Shown in pieces: positions 36,523 through 51,402 of a stretch of DNA of 64,000 bases (within the stretch, counting starts at the first letter, position 1; every line of letters starts with the position of its first letter). The translations under genes were made by a program, and so were the position numbers. The notes under the pieces were generated by a model. That model did not search any database. It was not told the origin of the DNA and saw nothing but the letters and a program-made list of their open reading frames with translations. The stretch is taken from contig NZ_AP023420.1 of assembly GCF_018408705.1 (NCBI RefSeq), positions 2,604,001 through 2,668,000 of the forward strand. The letters run 5' to 3'. Source of the stretch: Pusillibacter faecalis (GTDB taxonomy: Bacteria > Bacillota > Clostridia > Oscillospirales > Oscillospiraceae).

Positions 36523-38211
36523 ATGGAAAAGTATCGTCCCACACCGGAAAAGGTGTCAAATGAATATGAGGCCGGCCTTCAATTCAACAACGGCATTTCG
36601 TTTTATGACTGCGTGAATGTCAACGAAAACTTCTTCATTGGAAAGCAGTGGGAGGGCGTCCGTTCCAACGGCCTGCCGACGCCGGTTTTCAATTTCTTAA
36701 AGCGTGTGGTGCTGTTCTCTGTCGCCAATGTGTCCACGGACAATTTAAAACTCCACGCAAAGCCCCTTCCATCCAGCGGCAAGATTTCCGGACAGAGCGC
36801 CGAAATGCTGACGGACCTCTTGAACGAGCAGTTTTCCGGTATTTTTGAGTTCAACAAAATGGGCTCCTGCATTCGGGAGTTCTGCCGGAATGCCGCGGTG
36901 GACGGAGACGGCTGCCTTTATACCTATTGGGACCCCGATGTGGAGACCGGACAGCCCAGCAGAGGCGCAATCAAGACGGAAGTCCTGCCAAACACACAGG
37001 TTCTGTTTGGAAATCCCAACAGCCGGGAGGTGCAATCTCAGCCGTACATCCTCATCGAGCGGCGGATGCTGGTGCGGGAGGCCAGGAGACGGGCAGAGGC
37101 TAGCGGCGTCAGCCGGGAGGAACGAGAGGGAATCGCAGCGGACACCAAGCAGAGCGGCGATCCCCGCATGGATAACCTGGGCGGCAGCAAGGTTACGGTT
37201 CTGCTGAGACTTTGGAGAGATGAGAAGAGTGGGACCATCCACGGTTATGAATGCACACGGGACCGGGAAATCAAGCCGGAGTGGGACCTTGGCATCAAGC
37301 TGTACCCAATCACCTGGATGAATTGGGACTATGTACAGGATTGCTACCATGGTCAGGCCATGATTACCGGGCTGATTCCCAACCAGATTTTTGTCAACAA
37401 GCTCTTTGCCATGTCCATGATCTCCCTCATGATGCTGGCCTATCCCAAAATCATGTACGACAAGACAAAGGTCCCCAAGTGGAATAACCGAGTCGGCGCG
37501 GCAATCGGAGTGAACGGAAGCGTAGAAAACGTGGCGAAGATCATCGACCCGGCCACCATCTCCCCGCAGATTTCCCAGTTCATTGACATCGCCATCTCCT
37601 ACACGCAGAAATTCCTTGGAGCTTCCGACGTCGCCCTGGGCGATACCAGGCCGGACAACACCTCCGCCATTATCGCGCTGCAGCGGGCGGCCTCCACACC
37701 AATGGAGCTGACCAAACAGACCCTGTTGCAGTGTATCGAGGACCTAGGCAGGATTTACATGGAGTTCATGGGTGAATATTACGGGGAGCGATATATAGAG
37801 ATCAACATCAATCCCACGATGAAGATGCCGGCTCTGTTTGATTTTGAGGCTTTGAAGGACCTTTACTTCACGGTGGAATTGGATGTAGGCGCGTCCTCCT
37901 ACTGGAGCGAAATCGCCTCCATGCAGACGCTGGACAACCTGCTGATGCAGGACAAGATTGATACGATTGAGTATTTGAAGCGCCTGCCCGCCGGTCAGAT
38001 TACGGACCGGGAAACCCTGATTGCCGTATTGGAGGCCAGCCGGCAGCAGCAAATGGCCGCGCAGATGGGCGCTATGGGCGTCCCGGTCTCCGGCCAGGCC
38101 CCAGGACCGACAGATGAGGCGCAGCCGCCTTTGCGGGGCGGCCCCGGATATGGGGCCTTGCAGAGGGCCATCAACCAAACTGGAGAAATTCCCACGGAGA
38201 GAGGAGCGTAA
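36523..38211 (+). CDS. Phage portal protein (P22-like)
   Basis: 562 residues. It shows the portal pattern: N-terminal helices (FYDCVNVNENFFIGKQWEGV), wing region with VDGDGCLYTYWDPD, long stem helices (GLIPNQIFVNKLFAMSMISLMMLAYPKIMYD), then SDVALGDTRPDNTSAIIALQRAASTPMELTKQTLLQCIEDLGRIYMEF when read in pieces. A Gln/Pro-rich tail follows. It forms the dodecameric DNA channel. Length and style match P22-type portals of podoviruses. ATG after AGAGGAAAA. Confidence 0.85.
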   Translation: MEKYRPTPEKVSNEYEAGLQFNNGISFYDCVNVNENFFIGKQWEGVRSNGLPTPVFNFLKRVVLFSVANVSTDNLKLHAKPLPSSGKISGQSAEMLTDLLNEQFSGIFEFNKMGSCIREFCRNAAVDGDGCLYTYWDPDVETGQPSRGAIKTEVLPNTQVLFGNPNSREVQSQPYILIERRMLVREARRRAEASGVSREEREGIAADTKQSGDPRMDNLGGSKVTVLLRLWRDEKSGTIHGYECTRDREIKPEWDLGIKLYPITWMNWDYVQDCYHGQAMITGLIPNQIFVNKLFAMSMISLMMLAYPKIMYDKTKVPKWNNRVGAAIGVNGSVENVAKIIDPATISPQISQFIDIAISYTQKFLGASDVALGDTRPDNTSAIIALQRAASTPMELTKQTLLQCIEDLGRIYMEFMGEYYGERYIEININPTMKMPALFDFEALKDLYFTVELDVGASSYWSEIASMQTLDNLLMQDKIDTIEYLKRLPAGQITDRETLIAVLEASRQQQMAAQMGAMGVPVSGQAPGPTDEAQPPLRGGPGYGALQRAINQTGEIPTERGA

Positions 38212-38214
38212 CAC

Positions 38215-39567
38215 ATGGATTTTACACCGCTGGAAAAGGACATGAATATTATCTCCGCATTGGATGACGAGCCCAATGATGTGGGAGGGCTGACCGCCAC
38301 GGAGCTGAAAGCCAAATTTGACGAGGGCGGAAACGCCATCAAGGACTATCTGAACAACACCGTGATTCCGGAAGTGAAAGTTGCTCTTGGAGACAAGGCG
38401 GGTAAAGATGAGCTTCAGGGCCTTGTTCTGGGCCAGATTCCGGACGGGACCATTACGGAGGATAAGCTGAGCGAAGAGCTGAAAGAACAAATTGGCTCTA
38501 TGGCTCCCGCTTCCGATGTGTTCACGAAAGAAGAGACGCTCAGCCCTGAGACGGCGGCATTATATGAGCTGGATGATACGGCGGCTCCGGATGATGTGTT
38601 TATCATTTTGGCATTGGGAGCCGGGAAATACGGCTATGGCATCACGGTCAAATACCCAGATGGGACACCGGCGGCGGGGCTGTCAGTAACCGGAGTAACA
38701 GGCCGGCTTGGTGAGGCCATCATCACAGATGAAAACGGTTATTTCCTGGCGGTTAGCGAAAACAACAAAATTTCTTTTTCCATCAAATCCCCCTATTTTG
38801 ACATTGCAAACATCTCTAATCAGGCAGTAAACGCCGCTGGAGTCCTGACCAGGCAGACAGTGGAGTTTGCCTATAAGACCTATGAGGACTATATACTGCT
38901 TACTACTTCCCAGGTTATGAAGTTCTCCAGGGCTTACAAATTAGACTTGACCGCTGTGGGAGGGGGAGGTGGTAGCACTGGAGTTAACACAAAATCAGCT
39001 TTTGGAGCTGGAGGCGGTGGAGGTTATGTTGAAACACAATTAGATATAGATGTAGATACTTCAGATAAATTAACGGTAACTATTGGAGCGGGAGGTTCGA
39101 TACATTATATAACAAATGCAACTACTGCTGGAAATCCTGGAGGGCACACTGCTGTAGACAAAGGTAGTATACGATTAGTTTCAGCATATGGAGGCACAGG
39201 GTCTGGTGTTAATAATGGTGTTCCTTTTCAAGGAACTGGAAATGGTAATGGGGGAGTGAGATCAAATTCAGTAGTAAATCCGACTAATGGAACTGGGTTC
39301 ATTTTTAATGATGCTAGTTTAGGATTGGCTGGTGGAGGTGGAGGCGGAGGTTTTCTTGCAGGTGCTGGACAAACTGAAATGAGAGGTGGAACTCCTAACG
39401 GAGCAAATGGCGGCTATGTAGATACTAATAATAACACTGCGTACCGTGCTGGAAGTGCTGGTGTAGGTGGAGGTGGTGGTGCTGGAGGTTCGCAACAAAT
39501 TTCAACAAAAGCTGACGCTTCTCCTGGTGGAACCGGTGGTGTATACATTCGTTTTAAGTCTGCTTAA
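38215..39567 (+). CDS. Tail fibre / receptor-binding protein with invertible glycine-rich tip
   Basis: 450 residues. Residues 1-240 are a shaft: helical start, then a beta domain (GYGITVKYPDGTPAAGLSVTG...). From about 247 the protein becomes Gly/Asn/Thr-rich with GGGGG runs, a glycine-rich tip domain. The DNA for residue 241 onward is clearly more AT-rich than the first part, suggesting separate origin. The codons for YKLDLTAVGGG lie in a 34-bp inverted repeat, and an alternative 36-codon end sits on the opposite strand after the stop. Inversion would replace 210 residues by 36, giving a 276-residue protein. It probably determines host adsorption. Confidence 0.85.
   Translation: MDFTPLEKDMNIISALDDEPNDVGGLTATELKAKFDEGGNAIKDYLNNTVIPEVKVALGDKAGKDELQGLVLGQIPDGTITEDKLSEELKEQIGSMAPASDVFTKEETLSPETAALYELDDTAAPDDVFIILALGAGKYGYGITVKYPDGTPAAGLSVTGVTGRLGEAIITDENGYFLAVSENNKISFSIKSPYFDIANISNQAVNAAGVLTRQTVEFAYKTYEDYILLTTSQVMKFSRAYKLDLTAVGGGGGSTGVNTKSAFGAGGGGGYVETQLDIDVDTSDKLTVTIGAGGSIHYITNATTAGNPGGHTAVDKGSIRLVSAYGGTGSGVNNGVPFQGTGNGNGGVRSNSVVNPTNGTGFIFNDASLGLAGGGGGGGFLAGAGQTEMRGGTPNGANGGYVDTNNNTAYRAGSAGVGGGGGAGGSQQISTKADASPGGTGGVYIRFKSA
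38934..38967 (+). repeat. Tail-fibre inversion site, left inverted repeat
   Basis: 34 bp inside the fibre gene, matching the inverse of 39642-39675 at 32 of 34 positions (18 identical bases, one mismatch, 11 identical, one mismatch, 3 identical). Reading frame through the repeat is the same from both copies. Confidence 0.85.
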
Positions 39568-39675
39568 GCACTTTTCAACCTTAAATATGTACTTCCATTA
39601 CCATCAGCTGGACCTCTTGCTATTCCATTTGAATTGGAAAATCCTCCTCCCACAGCAGTCAAGTCTAATTTGTAA
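39564..39675 (-). other. Silent alternative C-terminal cassette of tail fibre
   Basis: The minus strand reads, in the frame set by the inverted repeat, YKLDLTAVGGGFSNSNG then IARGPADGNGSTYLRLKSA and stop. It has no start of its own. Its end GSTYLRLKSA parallels the expressed end GGVYIRFKSA, and both stops share the palindrome GCTTAAGC (39562-39569). It would be expressed only after the segment inverts. Confidence 0.85.
39642..39675 (-). repeat. Tail-fibre inversion site, right inverted repeat
   Basis: Inverted partner of 38934-38967, 32 of 34 bases. The two enclose 674 bp. It ends 36 bp before the next gene start, so inversion leaves that gene and its GAGGAG site untouched. Confidence 0.85.
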
Positions 39676-39711
39676 AGAAAGACCAGCTATAAAAAGTCAA
39701 GAGGAGAAAAC

Positions 39712-39942
39712 ATGAATTATTGCATTGTTGAAGATGAAACTATAGTAAACATGATTGTCTGCGAAGATGACACCACGGCGGAGCTGTTTGGCGCGGTTCC
39801 TGCCTATGAGGGGGCAAGGATTGGAGACCCATACGCTCCGCCTTCCCCTGCGCCTCCGGAACCGACAGCGGAGGACATTACCCTGGATATGCTGGCAGAC
39901 CACGAGGAACGCCTGTGTATGCTGGAACTCACCACCCTATGA
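39712..39942 (+). CDS. Small post-fibre protein (76 aa)
   Basis: 76 residues: an N-terminal beta part (MNYCIVEDETIVNMIVCEDD, read with AELFGAVPAYEGARIGDPY) and a Pro-rich linker before a helix. Proteins like this often follow tail-fibre genes in Firmicutes phages, perhaps as assembly partners. GAGGAG precedes the ATG by 6 bases. Confidence 0.7.
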   Translation: MNYCIVEDETIVNMIVCEDDTTAELFGAVPAYEGARIGDPYAPPSPAPPEPTAEDITLDMLADHEERLCMLELTTL

Positions 39943-39960
39943 CGTGAAAGGAGAACCCCT

Positions 39961-40116
39961 ATGTCTACTGTGTACAATCTCTGCAAGCTGTTGATTGACC
40001 GAGGCCGGACGGAAGGCCTGCAGGAGAAGATGGATGTGTATCTGGCGGCGGACAGGCTGACCCCGGAGGAGTACAGCGCCCTCAGTGAAATGCTAACTGC
40101 GGAGGCGGCTGAGTGA
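39961..40116 (+). CDS. Very small phage protein (51 aa, XkdX-like)
   Basis: 51 residues: STVYNLCKLLIDRGRTEGLQ, then a helix with LTPEEYSALSEML. Small helical proteins of this style (XkdX type) occur between fibre and holin genes. ATG 39961 follows AAAGGAGAA. Role unknown. Confidence 0.65.
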   Translation: MSTVYNLCKLLIDRGRTEGLQEKMDVYLAADRLTPEEYSALSEMLTAEAAE

Positions 40117-40129
40117 GGAGGTCCGCGTA

Positions 40130-40438
40130 TTGAACACGGAGATCATTTGCGCCCTGATTGCGGGCGGGGCTTCGGTACTGGCGGCACTGGCGGAGCGGCG
40201 CAGCCGACAGAGCGCCAGGCGGACAGAGGCGCGGGCCCAGCGCCGGGAGAAGGAGAGCCGCCTTGCCATGGAGCTGATGTACGCGAATTGCGCGCTCTCT
40301 CTCACCACTGCCAAGAAGCTGGCGGGGATGCATACCAACGGCGATGTGGAAGAGGCCATGGAGGCAGCGCGCAGCGCGCAGGAGGCTTATGTGGATTTTG
40401 TCAGAGATGAGGCGGCCCGCAATTTGAGCAAAGTTTAG
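40130..40438 (+). CDS. Small membrane-anchored phage protein (102 aa)
   Basis: An N-terminal hydrophobic segment (IICALIAGGASVLAALA) followed by a strongly basic Arg/Gln-rich helix and a helical tail. TTG start at 40130 with AGGAGG 8 bases upstream. Just before the holin and amidase genes, so it may assist lysis; that is inferred from place only. Confidence 0.65.
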   Translation: MNTEIICALIAGGASVLAALAERRSRQSARRTEARAQRREKESRLAMELMYANCALSLTTAKKLAGMHTNGDVEEAMEAARSAQEAYVDFVRDEAARNLSKV

Positions 40439-40477
40439 AACCGGCACAGCCGGAAATTTAGAAAGGAAGTACATATT

Positions 40478-40879
40478 ATGAACAAGACTATCAACGACAT
40501 CATGGAGCAGTACAAGGCCGGTAAGATCACGGTGGAGGAAGCCAACGCGAAGCTGAAAGAGGCTGGCGCGAACTTTTCTCTGGACCCGAACAAGAATCCT
40601 GGCGGCGGCTGGACGAAGGAAGAGATGGAGGAGGGCTTTATTCCCGCTCCCGTTGAAACTCCCTGGTGGGCCTCCATGCACACCTTCACCGGCGCTGTCG
40701 CGTGGCAGGAGGAGATCGACAAGTACATCCCCGAAAAGGATATGGTGTACAACCGGCCCAAGTATCATGGCGTGGACGTGGTGAAGGGCGCTCTGCGGTA
40801 CATCTATGCCGAGGACGGGTCCTGCAAGTATCAGCCCAAGTCTATGGCGGACTACGACAAGGACCATGGGAGGGCATGA
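40478..40879 (+). CDS. Phage protein with WTKEEME motif (133 aa)
   Basis: A short helical N-terminus (IMEQYKAGKITVEEANAKL, SHOCT-like) leads to GGGWTKEEMEEGFIP, almost the same as WTKEEMEQGF at the start of the ejection protein at 44089. The C-terminal half is Trp/Tyr-rich. Function unknown; the shared motif suggests a common partner. AAAGGAAG precedes the ATG. Confidence 0.7.
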   Translation: MNKTINDIMEQYKAGKITVEEANAKLKEAGANFSLDPNKNPGGGWTKEEMEEGFIPAPVETPWWASMHTFTGAVAWQEEIDKYIPEKDMVYNRPKYHGVDVVKGALRYIYAEDGSCKYQPKSMADYDKDHGRA

Positions 40880-40880
40880 C

Positions 40881-41084
40881 ATGGATGACCTGAAAAAGCG
40901 CCTTTCTAATCTGCTGACCGTAAAGAGCATCGTGACAGTGATTCTCACGGCGGTGTTCGCGTATCTCTCCGTCAGCGGTCATGTGACTACAGATCAGTTT
41001 TTGACGGTGTTCACAGTGGTGATCGCGTTCTATTTTGGTACCCAGGCGGAGCGGAAGGTCCGGACAGGCGGCGAGAGCTCGTGA
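40881..41084 (+). CDS. Holin
   Basis: 67 residues: short charged start, two helices (SIVTVILTAVFAYLSVSG and FLTVFTVVIAFYFGTQ) and a basic tail. Size, topology and position directly before the endolysin gene (4-bp overlap) identify a phage holin that opens the membrane for lysis. GGGAGGG precedes ATG 40881. Confidence 0.85.
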   Translation: MDDLKKRLSNLLTVKSIVTVILTAVFAYLSVSGHVTTDQFLTVFTVVIAFYFGTQAERKVRTGGESS

Positions 41085-41887: not shown

Positions 41888-42598
41888 TCAGGAGCCTGGG
41901 TAGAGGAGGCGGAAGGTCTCCCTGCCCTTTGGGGTAATCAAGGTTTGAATGCCGCTCCACTGGGTCTTGTCGTTGAAGCACTCCTTGGTCTCAAACAGGC
42001 CGTTGTTCTTGTCCTCGTAGGGCATGAGCTTGCCTTTCTTATCCCGGTAGATGTACTTCCTATCCAGCAGGAAGCGGACGAACTTCTTAGGCGGGACACC
42101 CAGCTCCTTTGCAGTCTCCCGGAAGCTGGTGAGGGTGTTGCGCTCCACCAGCTCGTCGAAGTAGTCCGCCTTGGGCTTCATGATCTGGTTGTCCACGGTG
42201 AGGGCGGAGTTGAGAGCGCGGACCTGTTTCAGCTCCTGTTCGGCGTACCGCAGGGCACGGGACATGACCTTCTCCGGGCTGTTCCAGTCCCGCTCCAGGG
42301 CCAGAAAATACTGCCGGGCCAGCTTGCCCTTCTCATTGCGCTGAAGCATGCAGATTTCTTTCGCCATGTCGAGGGAGAGGATGGCGTCATCAACCATACG
42401 GGAGACCATGCGGCCGCCCTCCATTTGAACCCGATCATTTTTGTACGGGTTGAAATCTTCCCCATCTTTGAAGCCATATTCGCACATACGGGGGAACCAA
42501 ATCCTATACGGGGTTTCTACTTCGAGGAACTCGTGAAGTTCCCGGGCGGAGACTGCGGGCTGGTCGTTGTGATAGGTGATCTTGATCAGTTCATTCAT
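41888..42598 (-). CDS. Phage antirepressor, AntA domain plus KilAC-like domain
   Basis: 236 residues. N-terminal AntA/AntB pattern (QPAVSARELHEFLEVETPYRIWFPRMCEYGF, then MAKEICMLQRNEKGKLARQYF) and a C-terminal DNA-binding part (LTSFRETAKELGVPPKKFVRFLLDRKYIYRD). Such proteins inactivate prophage repressors or tune lysogeny. Start overlaps the preceding 81-aa gene as ATGA. A second module at 50-51 kb has a different antirepressor in the same place. Confidence 0.85.
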   Translation of the reverse strand: MNELIKITYHNDQPAVSARELHEFLEVETPYRIWFPRMCEYGFKDGEDFNPYKNDRVQMEGGRMVSRMVDDAILSLDMAKEICMLQRNEKGKLARQYFLALERDWNSPEKVMSRALRYAEQELKQVRALNSALTVDNQIMKPKADYFDELVERNTLTSFRETAKELGVPPKKFVRFLLDRKYIYRDKKGKLMPYEDKNNGLFETKECFNDKTQWSGIQTLITPKGRETFRLLYPGS

Positions 42599-44088: not shown

Positions 44089-45375
44089 ATGGCAAGCACC
44101 TGGACAAAAGAGGAGATGGAGCAGGGCTTCACGGAGTCCTCCAAGCCCCATAAGGTATACCCAAACACACCGGACATGTCCAAGCGGCCGGACCTCGCCG
44201 GCCAGACGGTGGAACAGACCACGACCAGCGGAAAGTACAAGGTTACATACGATGAATCGGGCTATGCGGTCAAGGGGACCAACACCTCCCACGAGCTGTT
44301 TAACGACTCCGGAAGCAGCGGAGGAGGCGGGGGTGGTTCTTCGGGTGGAAGCCACAGCCGCGGCGGCAGCGTTTCGGACTTGTCTGAATATCTTAACGCG
44401 ATGTACGCCGCGAACACACAGGCCCAGCTTGCAGCGCTGCAGTCCGCCTATGAACAAAACCTCGCGGGCCTGCAGGCCAATGCGGAGAAGATTCCTGTCA
44501 CCTATCAGGCCGCCAGAAACGAAGCAGCCAGTCAAAATGAAATCGCGCGGCAGGCGTTTAACGAGTATGCCAACGCCCGGGGGCTGAATACCGGCACCTC
44601 TGGGCAGGCAGCGCTCGCAAACTCCGCGACGCTGCAAGGCAATCTCTCCGACATTTCCACACAGGAGTCCAATGCGCTGGCGGAGAACGCCTTACAGCAG
44701 CAGCTTCTTGCCGTGGAGTACCGGAATGCGGCGGCCCAGGCTCAGGCCCAGGGTAACGCGCAGTTAGCCCAGGCGCTGTACAGCGAGTATGTCCGGCAGG
44801 ACGACGCCTCCATGCAGCTTGCCCAGCTCGCCCAGGAACAGGCAAATTGGGAGGCGCAATTCAACACCGCAAACAATCAGTGGAATCAGCAGTTTCAGGC
44901 CTCGCAGCAGCAGTATCAGGATAGCCTTGCCGCGCAAAACCGGGAGTACGCGTATAACCTGGCGATGACCATGCTAGGCGCCGGAATTATGCCTGATAAC
45001 GCTACACTCACCCAGGCTGGGATTTCCTCCTCGGACGCCCTCTCCATGCGGATGGCCGCGCTGCAGGGAGGTTCTTCCGGCAGTAGGTCTTCCTCTTCTG
45101 GTAGAACATCGCCCAGCAGAAGCCAGACGAAGAACAACACCGTGACTGTTGACTACGCAAACCTTCCGGATTATGATACGATTTTGAAAAATTCCAGTGC
45201 CGGACTTTATGGATCGCAGTATGGACACACGCTTCAAATGGTACAGAATATGATTCGAAACGGTAACAGCGATGCTGAGATTAAAAATTATCTCACACAG
45301 CAACTTGATGGCGGAAAAATCAATGAGGATGGACTTGCTACTATTTTGCAGGCGCTTGGAAACGAAAGGGAATAA
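44089..45375 (+). CDS. Putative ejection/internal virion protein, Gln/Ala-rich (428 aa)
   Basis: Starts with WTKEEMEQGF, a motif shared with the product at 40478. A Gly/Ser linker (SSGGGGGGSSGGSHS) leads to a long Ala/Gln-rich helical region (about 100-300: AQLAALQSAYEQNLAGLQ, QWNQQFQASQQQYQDSLAAQ) and a C-terminal helical domain. Composition and place upstream of the giant protein fit internal head proteins that short-tailed phages inject with their DNA. ATG after AAAGGAG. Two bases separate it from the next gene. Confidence 0.65.
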   Translation: MASTWTKEEMEQGFTESSKPHKVYPNTPDMSKRPDLAGQTVEQTTTSGKYKVTYDESGYAVKGTNTSHELFNDSGSSGGGGGGSSGGSHSRGGSVSDLSEYLNAMYAANTQAQLAALQSAYEQNLAGLQANAEKIPVTYQAARNEAASQNEIARQAFNEYANARGLNTGTSGQAALANSATLQGNLSDISTQESNALAENALQQQLLAVEYRNAAAQAQAQGNAQLAQALYSEYVRQDDASMQLAQLAQEQANWEAQFNTANNQWNQQFQASQQQYQDSLAAQNREYAYNLAMTMLGAGIMPDNATLTQAGISSSDALSMRMAALQGGSSGSRSSSSGRTSPSRSQTKNNTVTVDYANLPDYDTILKNSSAGLYGSQYGHTLQMVQNMIRNGNSDAEIKNYLTQQLDGGKINEDGLATILQALGNERE

Positions 45376-45377
45376 CC

Positions 45378-48300
45378 ATGTCAAAAGAATTTGATGATCT
45401 GAGAAGACGGGTATACGGTTCCGCAAACCCAACCGAAGAACAGGTCCAGGCGGTTCGGAAACGCGCACAGGCCCCCGTTCGAAAGCCGACAGGACGCAAT
45501 CCAGAAATCAAAAAGGATGCACTTGTCAATGCGATAACTTCTAGTATGAAAAAGAATACTGCTCAGGCAGAAGATTCTTTGCCAGGTCGCGCCTTAAGCA
45601 TGAGGAACCAGCTCAAGCAGGAGGCGCAGCGTGGCGTTGACGAGATTTTATCGTCGCGGACCGGCGCTGTCATTCGAGGCGCCGCAAAGAGTACGGCGTC
45701 CGGATTTGCCAATACTGCGGGGACCGCGCTGGACGCCCTGCGGCAGGCGGACATCAACGCCTCTCAGGAAAACCAGAGGGCTCGTCAGGAGCTGGAAAAT
45801 GCCAGACGCTACCGGGAGATGGTTTCGGCCGGAAGGTTCGCGGACGGCAGGACGATGGAGGACGGGGACCGTGAACGCCTCCTCCGTCTTGCGGAATTGG
45901 CGGAACAGCGCGCTGGCGTCTACACGGAGAGCGCAGCTGCGCAGCATGAGCCGCTATCTCAGGCCGTTCAGCGCATCCAAGGCGGTGCGGACCGGTTGAG
46001 CGCATCTTCTCAGGAGGACATTGCCACCGCCAAAGAAGGTCTTGGCCGGGCGGGACAGTTTGCGGTAGATGTGGGCGTGGCTGGGACACAACTTCTAGGG
46101 GATATTTTGGCCGGCTCCGTGACAGGCGGCGGCGCTCTTTTGCCGATGGCGGTCCGAAGCTTTGGTTCCTCCGCGCAGACGGCCAGACAGTCCGGTGCGG
46201 ACCTGGGGCAGCAGCTTCTATACGGCACGGGCAGCGCCGCGCTGTCCGTTGCCACAGAGAAAATCTCAAACGTAGCCGCGCCGTTTAAGGCCGCATTCGG
46301 CGCAGGCGTTTTGGATGACGCACTCTCCCGGCTTCCCGCAAAGCTGTCACAGTCCGCGGCAGGTCGAACCGTGCTCTCTGCTATCGGTGAGGGCGGGGAG
46401 GAAGTGGTGGAAGACCTGGTGCAGCCGCTTCTTCAACGAATCACCTATGACAGCGGAGCTCTCTCCCAGTACCAAAACCCGGAATTTCTTTCAGACACGT
46501 TATATGATGGGCTGATAGGTGCGGCGCTGGGTGGCGTCGGCGGCGCCGCAGACGTGGCCGTGAACAGAATAGGCCCAACGGCGGCACAGGAGGGCGCAGG
46601 AGCGTTTGGCAGGGACAGCGGGGGCGCGGGTGCCCCTGGGGTGCAAGATGGCGCACATGGCATCCTGGGGCAAAACAAGACCGCCCCCGAAGTGGGGACG
46701 GCGGTGAAAGCGGACCGCGATACATACACCGTAGTCCAAAAATTGAAGGAGAGTATACCGGCGCTGAAAGAAGTGGAGCCGGTGGCAAGGACAGGCATAC
46801 AGGCAATAGAGCGTGTGAGCGGCAGTACAATGGCCGAAAAAGCACGGAACTTGTTTGAGACTGTCAAGGGTATTGTAACAAGACCAGACTTTGGAGATGT
46901 GGAAATCAATGGACGCTCTTTGAAAGATGACCTGAGTCACGGAGTGGGCCCTGCAAAAGCTGCTACAATTGCTACTGTTCCGGAGGTAATACGGCGCGGG
47001 CAACAAATCTATTTCGCGGAAAACTGGAAAAATAGAGGCTATGACGGGTATGTGTTTGCCGCTCCGGTGATTATGGACGGGCAGACCGCTTATGTGGCAG
47101 CAGTGGTGAAACGTACCAGTAAGAACCGATTCTATCTGCATGAAGTAGTTGATTCCACTGGAAACATCATAAAAATAGACGCGGGAGAAAGTGCCACTCC
47201 AACCAGCCTTGCCGCCAATGGCGACGCTGGGACACAATCTCCGGCGTCTGGGGACCTGACGCCTGCGGAGGCCAGCTTGGTAGGTCCATCACCTACGGCT
47301 TCCACCGAGACGTCAAGCCCGATTGAGGGTACGCGTACCCCCAATCCTGATTCTATCATAGCACCGGGGGCGGAAAATGTCAATCCGCCGGATGGATTAG
47401 GGGCGGCGGATGCCGGAACTCTTGGTGACTTCACGACCATGCAGAACGAGAGCGACGTTTTCCATCCAATCAACCAGCAAACCCAGGAACGGGAAATAGA
47501 GATGGGGAGAGCGCCGGAGGAAGTTCCTGTTATCAACCCGCGAACCGGTCAGAATATCACAAAGACTGTCTCCACGATTTTGAATAGTCCCTTGACCTCC
47601 AATGAGATGGCTAGAACGATTGAAGCATCCGTATCGGAAGGACAGTTTGACTATGCACCCGTTACAGATCGAGCTGCCAATCTTCGCGCGCAGCAGGACA
47701 TTTCAAAGCAGGGACTGGATGATGTTGCTCAATACTTCATTGCTAAGGTGGATTTTGGTCAGAAAATCACTAAGCAGGATATGGCCTCCGGAATCGCCGC
47801 GTATAATCAGGCTGTCGCGGATGGTAATCATATGCTGGCGCTTAATTTGGCAACTGCCATTTCCGAAAGCGCGCATAACAGCGCGCAAGTGGTTCAGGCA
47901 ATGAACTTAATGAACCGCCTGACACCGGAAGGAAAGCTTCTGGCTCTGCGGAAATTCCTGACCAGAATGAATCGCAAGAGACAGGGAACTCAGCAGCCCA
48001 GGAATGTTAATACGCACTCACAGGAGGATGTGGATGCCGCGCGGCTTGACTATGTGGAAAACAGCACAGGCTTTTCAATCAATGATGAACTTGCCGCCAA
48101 CTACCTGATGGCGGAGACTGACGCGGAGCGGGCGGCTGCCTGGGATGTGCTCTTGACGAATGTCGCTCAGCAGGTGCCGTCTACCTTCCGGGAAAAGGTC
48201 AATTTCTGGCGTTATACCATGATGCTGCTGAATCCGACAACACACGCAAGAAACCTTGCGGGCAACGCTATCCAGTGGGGAGCCAGAAAGATCAAAAATG

Positions 48301-50348
48301 GCGTGGGCGCTGCCATTGAGAGAGCTGTAATCCGGGACCAGAGTCAGAGGACAAAATCCTTTACCACCAGCAAAGACCTGCGGTCATTTGCCAAAGAGCA
48401 ATATAAAATTGACCAGGAAGCAGCTATGGGAAGCGGGAAATACTCTGACACGTCTGCTGCCGGCATTAACCGGGAGATTCAGGAGCGGCGCAAAGTCTTT
48501 TCTGCCGGGACGAATAGCATCCTAGCAAAAGGCGTTCAAGCTGTTGGAGACTTCAATGCCTGGCTGATGGATGCGGGAGATGTTCTTTTTAATCGGCCGG
48601 CCTATATAGATTCCTTCGCCCAAGCACTTAAGGCCAAAGGAATCACGGCGGAACAGGCGAGAAACGGGGGACCGGAAGTGGATGCCGCGAGAGCCTATGC
48701 CATCCAAGAGGCGCAAAAGGCTACTTACCGGAATACAACCGCGCTTTCCGAGGCAGTTTCCAGAATGGGACGCTATGAAGGGGACAATCCTGTTTTGAAG
48801 GCCGCGTCCTTTTTAGCGGATGCTGAATTGCCGTTCAGAAGAACGCCCGCAAACGTGTTGACTACTGGTCTTGACTACAGTCCTGTTGGTCTGGCCAGAG
48901 GCATAAAGAACGCTTTGTGGGATGTCCGCAAGGGGAATATGGATGCCGCCGCCGCTATTGACCGGATTTCTGAGGGATTGACCGGGAGCGCAATTATGGC
49001 GCTGGGTGCTTATCTGGCTGCGGAGGGATTTCTTCATGTGCGCGCGGGAGGAGATGACGACGAAAAAGAATTCAACCAAGATCGGGGAATGCAGGATTAC
49101 TCTTTACAGATCGGGGATATGTCGTATTCTCTGGATTGGGCGCTTCCCGCCGCAATGCCGCTGTTTGCGGGCGCGGCTGTCATGGAATCCGTGCAGGAGG
49201 CCGACGGGACATTTTCAGCGTTAGCGGACGCGATGACCGGTATTTCAGAGGTTGTGCTTGAATCATCCATGATGTCCTCTCTGGACGACCTGATTGCCAA
49301 CTGGAGCTATGCGGACAACAAGGCGACATATCTCATCGACGATGTGGTGACAAGCTACTTGGGGCAATATGTTCCGACCATCGGCGGAAAAATTGCCTCC
49401 ACTATGGATGAAACTGTCCGAAGGAGCTATACGGAACCTGGCACGGGGCAAGTTTCATCTGATGCGCAATACTTTTTGCAAAGCATCATGAAAAAAGTGC
49501 CTGGAGTCAGGAATCAGCTTCAACCTTCCGTTGACTTGTGGGGGAATGAGAAATCGAACGGCAGCTTTGAAGAGCGGCTTTTCCAGAGCTTTGTTTCCCC
49601 GGGTATTCTGCGAACGACTGACACCGGTCCGATTGACCGTGAAATCCGTCATTTGGCAGAGGCTACGGGAGATTCTTCTGTATACCCAAAAGAGGCTGAG
49701 AAATCATTTGCTGTAAACGGAGAACGAAAAGATCTCACGGCAGAGGAATATACGCAATATGCTAAAGTTCTTGGGCAGACCAGGTATAAAACCATTCAAT
49801 CCTTGATGGAAGACCCGGCCTATAACCGGCTTAGCTACGATGATAAAGCAAAAGCCATCAGCTACGCATATCAATACGCGACGGCTATTGGCAAGCAAGC
49901 TGTCAGTGCGTACAAACCGGCAGACAGCAGCTTTGCGAAAGGCGCTATAAACAGCTCGCTTCCCATCGAAAGCTATATTCTGTATCAAATTAACTCCGAC
50001 AGGAATCACAATGGCAGTACGGACAGCGTTGAATCTGCGACCACGCTGCAAGAACTTACTGGCATCACAAACCGGCAGAGAGGCGCCGCTTGGGCGCAGA
50101 AGAACAGCCAGACCAGTGAAGCGAAAAATCCCTTTACCGGCGCATTGCCGAGCGCCGGGGTCTCCGTCAACACCTCGATTGCCATACTAGAGAAGTATCG
50201 CGCCCTATACAACGACGACAGCATGAAAACCAGAGAGAAGGCACAGGCATTCAAGGACTATGTCTATGGCCTGGGCCTCTCCGGTGGCCAGCTGGCCGCT
50301 GTCAAAGAGACCTATACTTGGTGGGGCAGCTACCCCGTTGAGTGGTGA
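45378..50348 (+). CDS. Giant polyvalent ejection protein (1656 aa)
   Basis: The largest gene in the window. Parts: charged coil (1-190); two hydrophobic stretches (about 220-310: VDVGVAGTQLLGDILAGSV, LLPMAVRSF); a compact alpha/beta domain at about 500-600 (VEINGRSLKDDLSHGVG, then YFAENWKNRGYDGYVFAAPV and NRFYLHEVVD) that resembles the large-polyvalent-protein / BECR-nuclease-like modules of phage injected proteins; a Pro/Ser-rich linker (about 610-690); helical regions; a domain with YTMMLLNPTTHARNLAGNAI (about 950); and membrane-like helices near 1200-1290. Such proteins are thought to be packaged and delivered into the host. Nuclease activity is not proven. Confidence 0.75.
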   Translation: MSKEFDDLRRRVYGSANPTEEQVQAVRKRAQAPVRKPTGRNPEIKKDALVNAITSSMKKNTAQAEDSLPGRALSMRNQLKQEAQRGVDEILSSRTGAVIRGAAKSTASGFANTAGTALDALRQADINASQENQRARQELENARRYREMVSAGRFADGRTMEDGDRERLLRLAELAEQRAGVYTESAAAQHEPLSQAVQRIQGGADRLSASSQEDIATAKEGLGRAGQFAVDVGVAGTQLLGDILAGSVTGGGALLPMAVRSFGSSAQTARQSGADLGQQLLYGTGSAALSVATEKISNVAAPFKAAFGAGVLDDALSRLPAKLSQSAAGRTVLSAIGEGGEEVVEDLVQPLLQRITYDSGALSQYQNPEFLSDTLYDGLIGAALGGVGGAADVAVNRIGPTAAQEGAGAFGRDSGGAGAPGVQDGAHGILGQNKTAPEVGTAVKADRDTYTVVQKLKESIPALKEVEPVARTGIQAIERVSGSTMAEKARNLFETVKGIVTRPDFGDVEINGRSLKDDLSHGVGPAKAATIATVPEVIRRGQQIYFAENWKNRGYDGYVFAAPVIMDGQTAYVAAVVKRTSKNRFYLHEVVDSTGNIIKIDAGESATPTSLAANGDAGTQSPASGDLTPAEASLVGPSPTASTETSSPIEGTRTPNPDSIIAPGAENVNPPDGLGAADAGTLGDFTTMQNESDVFHPINQQTQEREIEMGRAPEEVPVINPRTGQNITKTVSTILNSPLTSNEMARTIEASVSEGQFDYAPVTDRAANLRAQQDISKQGLDDVAQYFIAKVDFGQKITKQDMASGIAAYNQAVADGNHMLALNLATAISESAHNSAQVVQAMNLMNRLTPEGKLLALRKFLTRMNRKRQGTQQPRNVNTHSQEDVDAARLDYVENSTGFSINDELAANYLMAETDAERAAAWDVLLTNVAQQVPSTFREKVNFWRYTMMLLNPTTHARNLAGNAIQWGARKIKNGVGAAIERAVIRDQSQRTKSFTTSKDLRSFAKEQYKIDQEAAMGSGKYSDTSAAGINREIQERRKVFSAGTNSILAKGVQAVGDFNAWLMDAGDVLFNRPAYIDSFAQALKAKGITAEQARNGGPEVDAARAYAIQEAQKATYRNTTALSEAVSRMGRYEGDNPVLKAASFLADAELPFRRTPANVLTTGLDYSPVGLARGIKNALWDVRKGNMDAAAAIDRISEGLTGSAIMALGAYLAAEGFLHVRAGGDDDEKEFNQDRGMQDYSLQIGDMSYSLDWALPAAMPLFAGAAVMESVQEADGTFSALADAMTGISEVVLESSMMSSLDDLIANWSYADNKATYLIDDVVTSYLGQYVPTIGGKIASTMDETVRRSYTEPGTGQVSSDAQYFLQSIMKKVPGVRNQLQPSVDLWGNEKSNGSFEERLFQSFVSPGILRTTDTGPIDREIRHLAEATGDSSVYPKEAEKSFAVNGERKDLTAEEYTQYAKVLGQTRYKTIQSLMEDPAYNRLSYDDKAKAISYAYQYATAIGKQAVSAYKPADSSFAKGAINSSLPIESYILYQINSDRNHNGSTDSVESATTLQELTGITNRQRGAAWAQKNSQTSEAKNPFTGALPSAGVSVNTSIAILEKYRALYNDDSMKTREKAQAFKDYVYGLGLSGGQLAAVKETYTWWGSYPVEW

Positions 50349-50379: not shown

Positions 50380-51081
50380 TCACTGTTTAGAGATGATTGT
50401 TTCCAGAACGGGCAAGACGCTAGCGTAGTAGCGGAAGGAGGAGACTTCCTTTCCAGGGCAGTTCTTGGCGACATCATTGAACCATGCCCCGTACTGCTTT
50501 GTTTTCAGGTGGTTGCGGTTGGCGAGCATCCCAACCTTGTTTGCGGAGATTCCCAGTTTTTCGCCGATCTCCTGTGCTGAGTAGGTCTTTTCCCCGGTAT
50601 AGGGCAGGGGGAGCAGGTATTCCCCGGTCAGCTCCTTTGTGGCGTGGGCCTGGAGAACTTGTCTGTAAGTACCGTCGTACTCCTTCGCCAGACGCTCCAG
50701 AAGCTGGGCCTTGCGGATGCGGATGCTCTCCAGCTGGTAGTCGGTCATGGGCTTGGCTGTGTACTGTCCCGTCTTGCGGATAGTTGGGAGGACCTCGTCA
50801 AAAATCCAGCTTTCGAATTTCTCTGCGCCAGGGAGCTGGGAGGAAGTAGCAAGGCGGTAGATATCACCCTCAGGGATGAAGTTTGTGAGCTGGTTTCTTC
50901 CCAAGTCATCGGTGAGGTGGCGTTTCACCACCCCACGGCAATGTTGCTTGATGGCGTTGGTAGTGTCCTTGTAGCCAAGAGCTTGGGCCACGTCTTTTGC
51001 ACAGAACAGAGTCTTGCCCTTCTCTGTGATAGTGCGAATCTGCCCGAATTCGGGATTGTTGAAAACTTTCAGTTCATTCAT
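50380..51081 (-). CDS. Phage antirepressor, Bro-N plus KilAC domains
   Basis: 233 residues. Bro-N pattern (FGQIRTITEKGKTLFCAKDVAQALGY, AIKQHCRGVVKRHL, GDIYRLATSSQLPGAEKFESWIFDEVLPTIRKTGQY in sequence) followed by a KilAC-like winged helix (YSAQEIGEKLGISANKVGMLANRNHL). ATG 51081 overlaps the 81-aa stop as ATGA; the frame upstream of it is the out-of-frame shadow of that gene. Same position as the AntA protein in module 1 but unrelated in its N-terminal domain. Confidence 0.9.
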   Translation of the reverse strand: MNELKVFNNPEFGQIRTITEKGKTLFCAKDVAQALGYKDTTNAIKQHCRGVVKRHLTDDLGRNQLTNFIPEGDIYRLATSSQLPGAEKFESWIFDEVLPTIRKTGQYTAKPMTDYQLESIRIRKAQLLERLAKEYDGTYRQVLQAHATKELTGEYLLPLPYTGEKTYSAQEIGEKLGISANKVGMLANRNHLKTKQYGAWFNDVAKNCPGKEVSSFRYYASVLPVLETIISKQ

Positions 51082-51402
51082 TGTGATACCTCCATGATCT
51101 GGCTGCGCAGGTCCCCGATTGCTGAGAAAATGGCATCGTAAGCCGGGATGTAGATGCTCTGCAATCGACCGGAAATGGAGGCGAGGATGCAAGCGGCATC
51201 GTTGCTTCCCGCATTCACAGCGGTATGGACATCGCTCTCCATGGCCTCCTGGGTCAACTGCATCAGCGCAAGAATCGAATGCAGCGAGACTTCGACCTCT
51301 GTCATAGTAATTGTGTTGTTCATACTGGCTCCTCCATAAATTTTTCTTGATTGGAGGTCCCTCTGGTGGTATCATAGATTTACCGGCAGGGAGACCTCCG
51401 GG
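51070..51402 (-). repeat. Duplicated 333-bp block, copy 2
   Basis: Gap-free match to 42587-42919, same orientation, 8.5 kb away. Recombination between the copies would delete or duplicate the ejection genes between them. Confidence 0.9.
51078..51323 (-). CDS. 81-aa regulatory-module protein, copy 2
   Basis: Nearly identical to the product of 42595-42840, including ILASISGRLQSIYIPAYDAI. Same GGAGGAGCC ribosome site and same promoter region. Followed by the Bro-N antirepressor. Confidence 0.75.
   Translation of the reverse strand: MNNTITMTEVEVSLHSILALMQLTQEAMESDVHTAVNAGSNDAACILASISGRLQSIYIPAYDAIFSAIGDLRSQIMEVSQ

Follow-up and report, generated by a model that had tools for sequence, protein, structure and literature searches.

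A tail-fibre locus in a Pusillibacter faecalis prophage that may be the decayed remnant of a two-tip inversion module

The window analysed here, a 64-kb stretch of the Pusillibacter faecalis genome, holds a tail-fibre gene together with genes for a P22-type portal, terminase, capsid, amidase, antirepressor and DNA packaging, and, on the opposite strand, exonuclease and RusA-like genes. Just beyond the right edge of the window come a repressor-like gene and a tyrosine recombinase of the integrase type, and we infer that this integrase and the genes above belong to one prophage; a shared attachment-site repeat was not found in the two stretches compared. The prophage has two antirepressor-type genes, AntA/KilAC and Bro-N (41888-42598 and 50380-51375, both on the minus strand), and between them, on the plus strand, a 1656-aa ORF with a large polyvalent protein-associated domain (LPD3; 45378-50348) preceded by a 428-aa ORF without a Pfam match (44089-45375).

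The fibre ORF (38215-39567) encodes 450 residues, and the layout of its 3′ end is given in Table 1. The two arms of the inverted repeat are 34 nt each, identical at 32 of 34 positions and 674 nt apart, and their two mismatches (ACC/ACT and GGG/GGA) are both synonymous. Translation of the minus strand through the right arm gives YKLDLTAVGGG, then FSNSNGIARGPADGNGSTYLRLKSA, then a stop, so that 25 in-frame codons lie past the arm. The plus-strand stop occupies 39565-39567 and the minus-strand stop 39564-39566, and therefore the two head-on ends overlap at their stops within GCTTAAGC, which begins at 39562. Inverted repeats thus bracket alternative in-frame 3′ ends joined to a constant stem, as in an invertible tail-fibre segment, with one of the ends only a remnant; read in the opposite orientation, the segment would give a fibre of 276 residues. 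No other inverted repeat was present in the 64-kb window (criteria: at least 24 nt, at least 90% identity, 200-4000 nt apart). A preliminary description of this DNA had reported the repeat with its in-frame minus-strand end, had placed both stops in one palindrome, and had proposed that inversion would switch the fibre from 450 to 276 residues without touching the next gene. Recomputation confirmed the repeat and frames, the overlapping stops agree with the second statement, and the third holds as a reading of the layout.

Table 1. Features of the fibre locus, in window positions.
Feature	Position	Strand	Basis
Constant stem of the fibre gene, residues 1-240	38215..38933	+	ORF; database proteins bear tips A-D on this stem
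Left arm: coding hinge YKLDLTAVGGG, first strand of the tip domain	38934..38967	+	Repeat alignment, model
Expressed tip A, glycine-rich, ending YIRFKSA + stop	38968..39567	+	PF21722 match at residues 238-447, model
Palindrome GCTTAAGC with the overlapping stop codons of both ends	39562..39569	.	Sequence
Silent end: last 25 codons + stop, type-B tip without its middle	39564..39641	-	P0077 match, alignments
Right arm: second hinge copy, in frame with the silent end	39642..39675	-	Repeat alignment
Next gene, 76 aa, outside the repeat, unchanged by inversion	39712..39942	+	ORF; PHROG family of unknown function

What is the silent end? It is homologous to a tip that other fibres express: it aligns with residues 440-467 of the database protein P0077 at 75% identity (E 4.5e-6), and P0077 combines a stem 98.4% identical to that of the window with an intact tip of 231 residues, tip B, which also occurs intact on a different stem (P0098). 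In the silent end the GGG of the hinge is followed directly by FSNSNG, and approximately 190 residues of P0077 (252-442, with the hinge aligned) have no counterpart. Judged by these alignments, the silent end consists of the beginning and the end of the glycine-rich tip B, with the middle missing between glycine runs, as though the first and last of these runs had recombined. We found no long reading frame specific to the silent end, where the open frame is 40 codons. That the arms differ only synonymously would also suit a silent end that is still used. GC content falls from 57% upstream and 50.5% in the stem to 44% in tip A and 36.5% in the silent end. Comparable in-frame losses ending in glycine runs are found in two expressed fibres, P0080 and P0068; these are the same kind of change as the one we propose below for the silent tip.

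The expressed tip A matches the PF21722 profile in a direct scan with 48 bits against a cut-off of 24.3. A structure model of the whole fibre is only moderate (mean pLDDT 65.9, with residues 1-129 below 50), and the confident part includes both the hinge motif YKLDLTAV, which is placed in the first strand (241-248), and YIRFKSA, which is placed in the last (442-449). Foldseek matched the fold of the expressed tip to the Bxb1 tail tip (9d93) and the fibre of cyanophage Pam3 (7ypx) with E-values of 2.5e-7 to 7.5e-6, although the overall superposition is low (TM-score 0.40-0.47 by target length, rmsd 6-11) and the model outside the tip is largely of low confidence; tip A would accordingly share a fold with the glycine-rich phage tip domains. 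Because the repeat encodes the first strand of the complete tip-A domain, the inverted form would be a fibre without a tip domain.

The hinge has a second role that emerges from comparison with database proteins. We sorted by simple motifs the tips of the 120 listed proteins among 271 matches to the fibre. The window's stem type, with 88 of the 120, carries tip A in 70, B in 3, C in 3, D in 2 and other glycine tips in 2, and 8 have no hinge motif; a second stem type (16 of the 120) carries A in 7, B in 6, C in 1 and others in 2, and 16 further proteins have other starts. One protein sorted as other, P0096, has an end that resembles a B tip. Across stems, the same tip is 98.1% identical for A (202/206), 99.6% for B (230/231), 100% for C (209/209) and 99.5% for D (203/204), while the stems that bear these near-identical tips are 46.3-61.9% identical to each other; the A-type tips of some other relatives are more divergent, at 75% and 62%. 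Since tips that are 98-100% identical sit on stems that are 46-62% identical, we conclude from these protein alignments that entire tip domains, joined at the hinge, have passed between stems that are unrelated, with the hinge as the junction for this whole-tip exchange between unrelated phages. P0012 (450 residues, tip A) and P0098 (tip B, the other stem type) both have a longest contig of 61036 bases, perhaps one and the same contig. A further set, P0109-P0116, has the first ~130 stem residues in common and quite different ends (BNR-type or collar-domain families), which points to exchange at a second point as well.

Does any relative retain both tips? The strongest support for the two-tip idea is found in the Agathobaculum phage AB434P2, a related phage that, from its record, seems to keep both. 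Its fibre gene (L067 5001-6518) shares, in its first part, 44% identity with P0102 residues 1-164, and, like the window, AB434P2 and its sister AB434P3 (OP172633, OP172634) have a related stem domain, a coding inverted repeat (33 bp) with one arm inside the fibre gene, and a silent tip that is head-on and in frame. Unlike in the window, the repeat is perfect, the hinge reads HYITPKLLKEG, the silent tip continues for 104 further residues to its stop, and the tips belong to a type other than the glycine-rich one, with no significant match to each other outside the hinge. Neither a serine recombinase (resolvase) nor a tyrosine recombinase was detected in the AB434P2 record, which does carry a UvsX-like recombinase gene and a Cas4-like exonuclease. 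The two sister records are in one orientation, with 99.9% identity over 3101 bp.

The hinge layout was otherwise scarce in our searches. A protein search of a phage collection gave no match with the window's fibre and the two Agathobaculum records with P0102. Among eight viral-contig scans, five gave no confirmed relative, one gave a pattern match without a stem match (L013) and two gave stem matches only; a genome-contig scan gave four stem matches and a plasmid scan no relative. The locus did not turn up a second time when 99, 400 and 394 genomes around the host were searched by protein. The preliminary description had suggested looking in related prophages for the same repeat with other cassettes: the layout does recur in AB434P2, with a different hinge and unrelated tips, and this was the sole case among 39 stem-matching loci, four of which hold fewer than 700 bases past the stem start. 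At another of the 39, L083, a perfect 19-bp inverted repeat with copies ~2 kb apart lies downstream of the stem match. All seven further genome loci that carry the tip family lacked a hinge repeat, a sample that is incomplete, and a count (7 in 400 genomes) that is too low, because the PF21722 profile search behind it missed the window's own tip. Two further records, Flavonifractor phage Chenonceau and MT835625, were rejected as relatives, as they match solely downstream of the fibre and have no hinge repeat. Across all these searches, no DNA relative was found in which the YKLDLTAVGGG hinge carries two tips that are intact and head-on, and for this reason the two-tip ancestor proposed next is inferred.

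Our preferred reading, to which we give somewhat better than an even chance (roughly 0.55), is that this locus once was a two-tip fibre module of the inversion type, built around an exchangeable hinge, and that what remains of it is probably fixed on tip A today. The shared stem ends in the coding hinge, with tip A next on the plus strand; in the ancestor, tip B would have lain head-on on the minus strand, preceded by a hinge copy of its own, so that the stop codons of the two tips met. An in-frame deletion between the first and last glycine runs would then have removed the middle of tip B, leaving the hinge and the last 25 codons, so that in practice the fibre would be fixed on tip A. Inversion at the hinge repeat would still be conceivable, yielding a 276-residue fibre with no more of a tip than its first and last strands; the hinge doubles as the junction at which unrelated phages trade whole tips. 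We count as points against this reading that no DNA relative with both tips intact was found, that the hinge of AB434P2 is different, that its tips are unrelated and that the sister records are in one orientation, that both arm differences are synonymous, and that AB434P2 alone among the 39 stem-matching loci has a hinge repeat.

Could the silent end instead be left over from a tip replacement, with no history of inversion at all? A phage with tip B would have used homologous recombination at the hinge to swap its tip, and the rearranged old end would have stayed, inverted, behind the new tip. The movement of whole tips between unrelated stems at the hinge would fit such an origin, as would the cassette being AT-richer than its surroundings, the presence of exonuclease and RusA-like genes, and the relaxed homologous recombination among phages that is reported in excerpts of PMC3945230. 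Taken alone, however, replacement leaves unexplained why the piece is inverted, why it has an in-frame copy of the hinge and why it meets tip A exactly at the stop, and AB434P2 displays the same head-on layout with a perfect repeat. We therefore regard a replacement without inversion as rather unlikely.

Less credible still, and in our view improbable, is a working phase switch, operated by a distant recombinase, between the 450-residue fibre and a 276-residue short form. Frames and stops are intact, the arms differ only synonymously, and the excerpted text of PMC6109161 records a bifidophage locus that is inverted and has no recombinase next to it. The preliminary description had stated that no invertase is nearby, and the genome search that it proposed agrees: 32 serine recombinase (PF00239) and 22 tyrosine recombinase matches were obtained in the host genome, all outside the window. 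The nearest PF00239 matches are ~46 kb to the left (a large, 625-aa recombinase) and ~148 kb to the right, and the nearest tyrosine recombinase is the integrase type (phrog_1) ~27 kb away (~66743-67816 on the window's scale). The host does have a Gin-like 191-aa serine recombinase (L066 5149-5727), ~152 kb from the locus, from which the action of an invertase in trans may be possible. At ~3.4 kb from the Gin-like gene there is a nearly palindromic 25-bp repeat in two copies (L066 1154-1178 and 1724-1748).

Against a working switch, the short form would, according to the model, be without a tip domain, and the arms lack the symmetry of recombination sites, the best dyad being no better than in shuffles (smallest fraction ~0.16). 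The arm sequence has just two copies in the host genome, the two described here (DNA search). We found neither a serine invertase of the Gin/Cin/Min type adjoining the segment nor, as would be expected of a Rin-type shufflon, a dedicated tyrosine invertase beside the locus, and there is one silent end only. The short form is also missing among the relatives listed: no 276-residue product occurs among the 120 listed of 271 matches to the fibre, nor among the 120 listed of 1262 matches (2530 candidates) to the constant part, a query with which a 276-residue form with the full constant part is expected to score among the best; the seven best proteins there have 431, 340, 385, 404, 430, 216 and 165 residues. 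The 450-residue form, by comparison, is represented by at least 64 database proteins, the window's own included. This absence is not proof against a switch, because assemblies show majority orientations. The claim of an invertible fibre tip with an alternative end is thus upheld in part: the two-tip inversion layout, the homology of the silent end to a real tip and the parallel in AB434P2 speak for it, whereas the loss of ~190 of the 231 tip-B residues, the arms without site symmetry, the lack of a nearby invertase and the lack of a listed 276-residue product speak against a working switch in this copy. Chance or an assembly artefact, for which we found no point in favour, is extremely improbable, as the best 34-nt inverted match in 37800-41000 is 32 and six triplet shuffles reach only 21-24, the silent end has a homologue among known tips, and the locus is interior to a 2.9 Mb contig.

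How does a decayed two-tip module compare with known systems? In phages Mu and P1, fibre ends are inverted at repeats, or crossover sites, that lie inside the fibre gene, and so the preliminary description's contrast between the coding repeat of the window and these phages does not stand. The Mu G segment (Gin) and P1 C segment (Cin) resemble the window in having a constant stem, alternative 3′ ends on opposite strands and inverted repeats in coding sequence; unlike them, the window has a silent end that is a 25-codon remnant, arms without recombinase-site symmetry beyond that of shuffles, and no adjoining invertase gene. The excerpts of PMC6109161 name Mu and P1 inversion and describe a bifidophage tyrosine-recombinase shufflon (Rin) together with a second inverted locus that has no recombinase beside it, for which the authors propose an invertase in trans. 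As far as those excerpts go, the bifidobacterial loci are similar to the window in belonging to gut prophages of Gram-positive hosts, in varying the ends of a receptor-binding or structural gene and, for the second locus, in having no adjacent recombinase. They differ, in the same excerpts, in having repeats of 11 and 8 bp and an inversion that was detected by genome comparison or in virion reads, whereas the window has a 34-bp coding hinge at which any inversion is putative. Our literature searches found no papers on the present fibre loci. Neither a coding repeat nor a distant invertase is novel; the window contributes a longer coding hinge common to many tips and stems, and a locus that apparently has lost one of its tips.

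A broader question is whether, in the gut phages of Oscillospirales, a coding hinge of ~33 bp serves both as inversion repeat and as shared junction for trading tips, with inversion performed by ordinary phage or host recombination and no dedicated invertase. AB434P2 would then be a working case and the window a decayed one, a scenario that we offer as speculative and on present evidence unlikely. Variation in receptor-binding tips decides the range of bacteria open to a gut phage. AB434P2 and AB434P3, being isolated phages, provide a direct test case for fibre inversion in a phage without a detected invertase. Our comparison places near-identical tips, joined at one and the same short coding hinge, on phage stems that are unrelated, and the window itself probably shows how a tip switch dies, by deletion between glycine runs.
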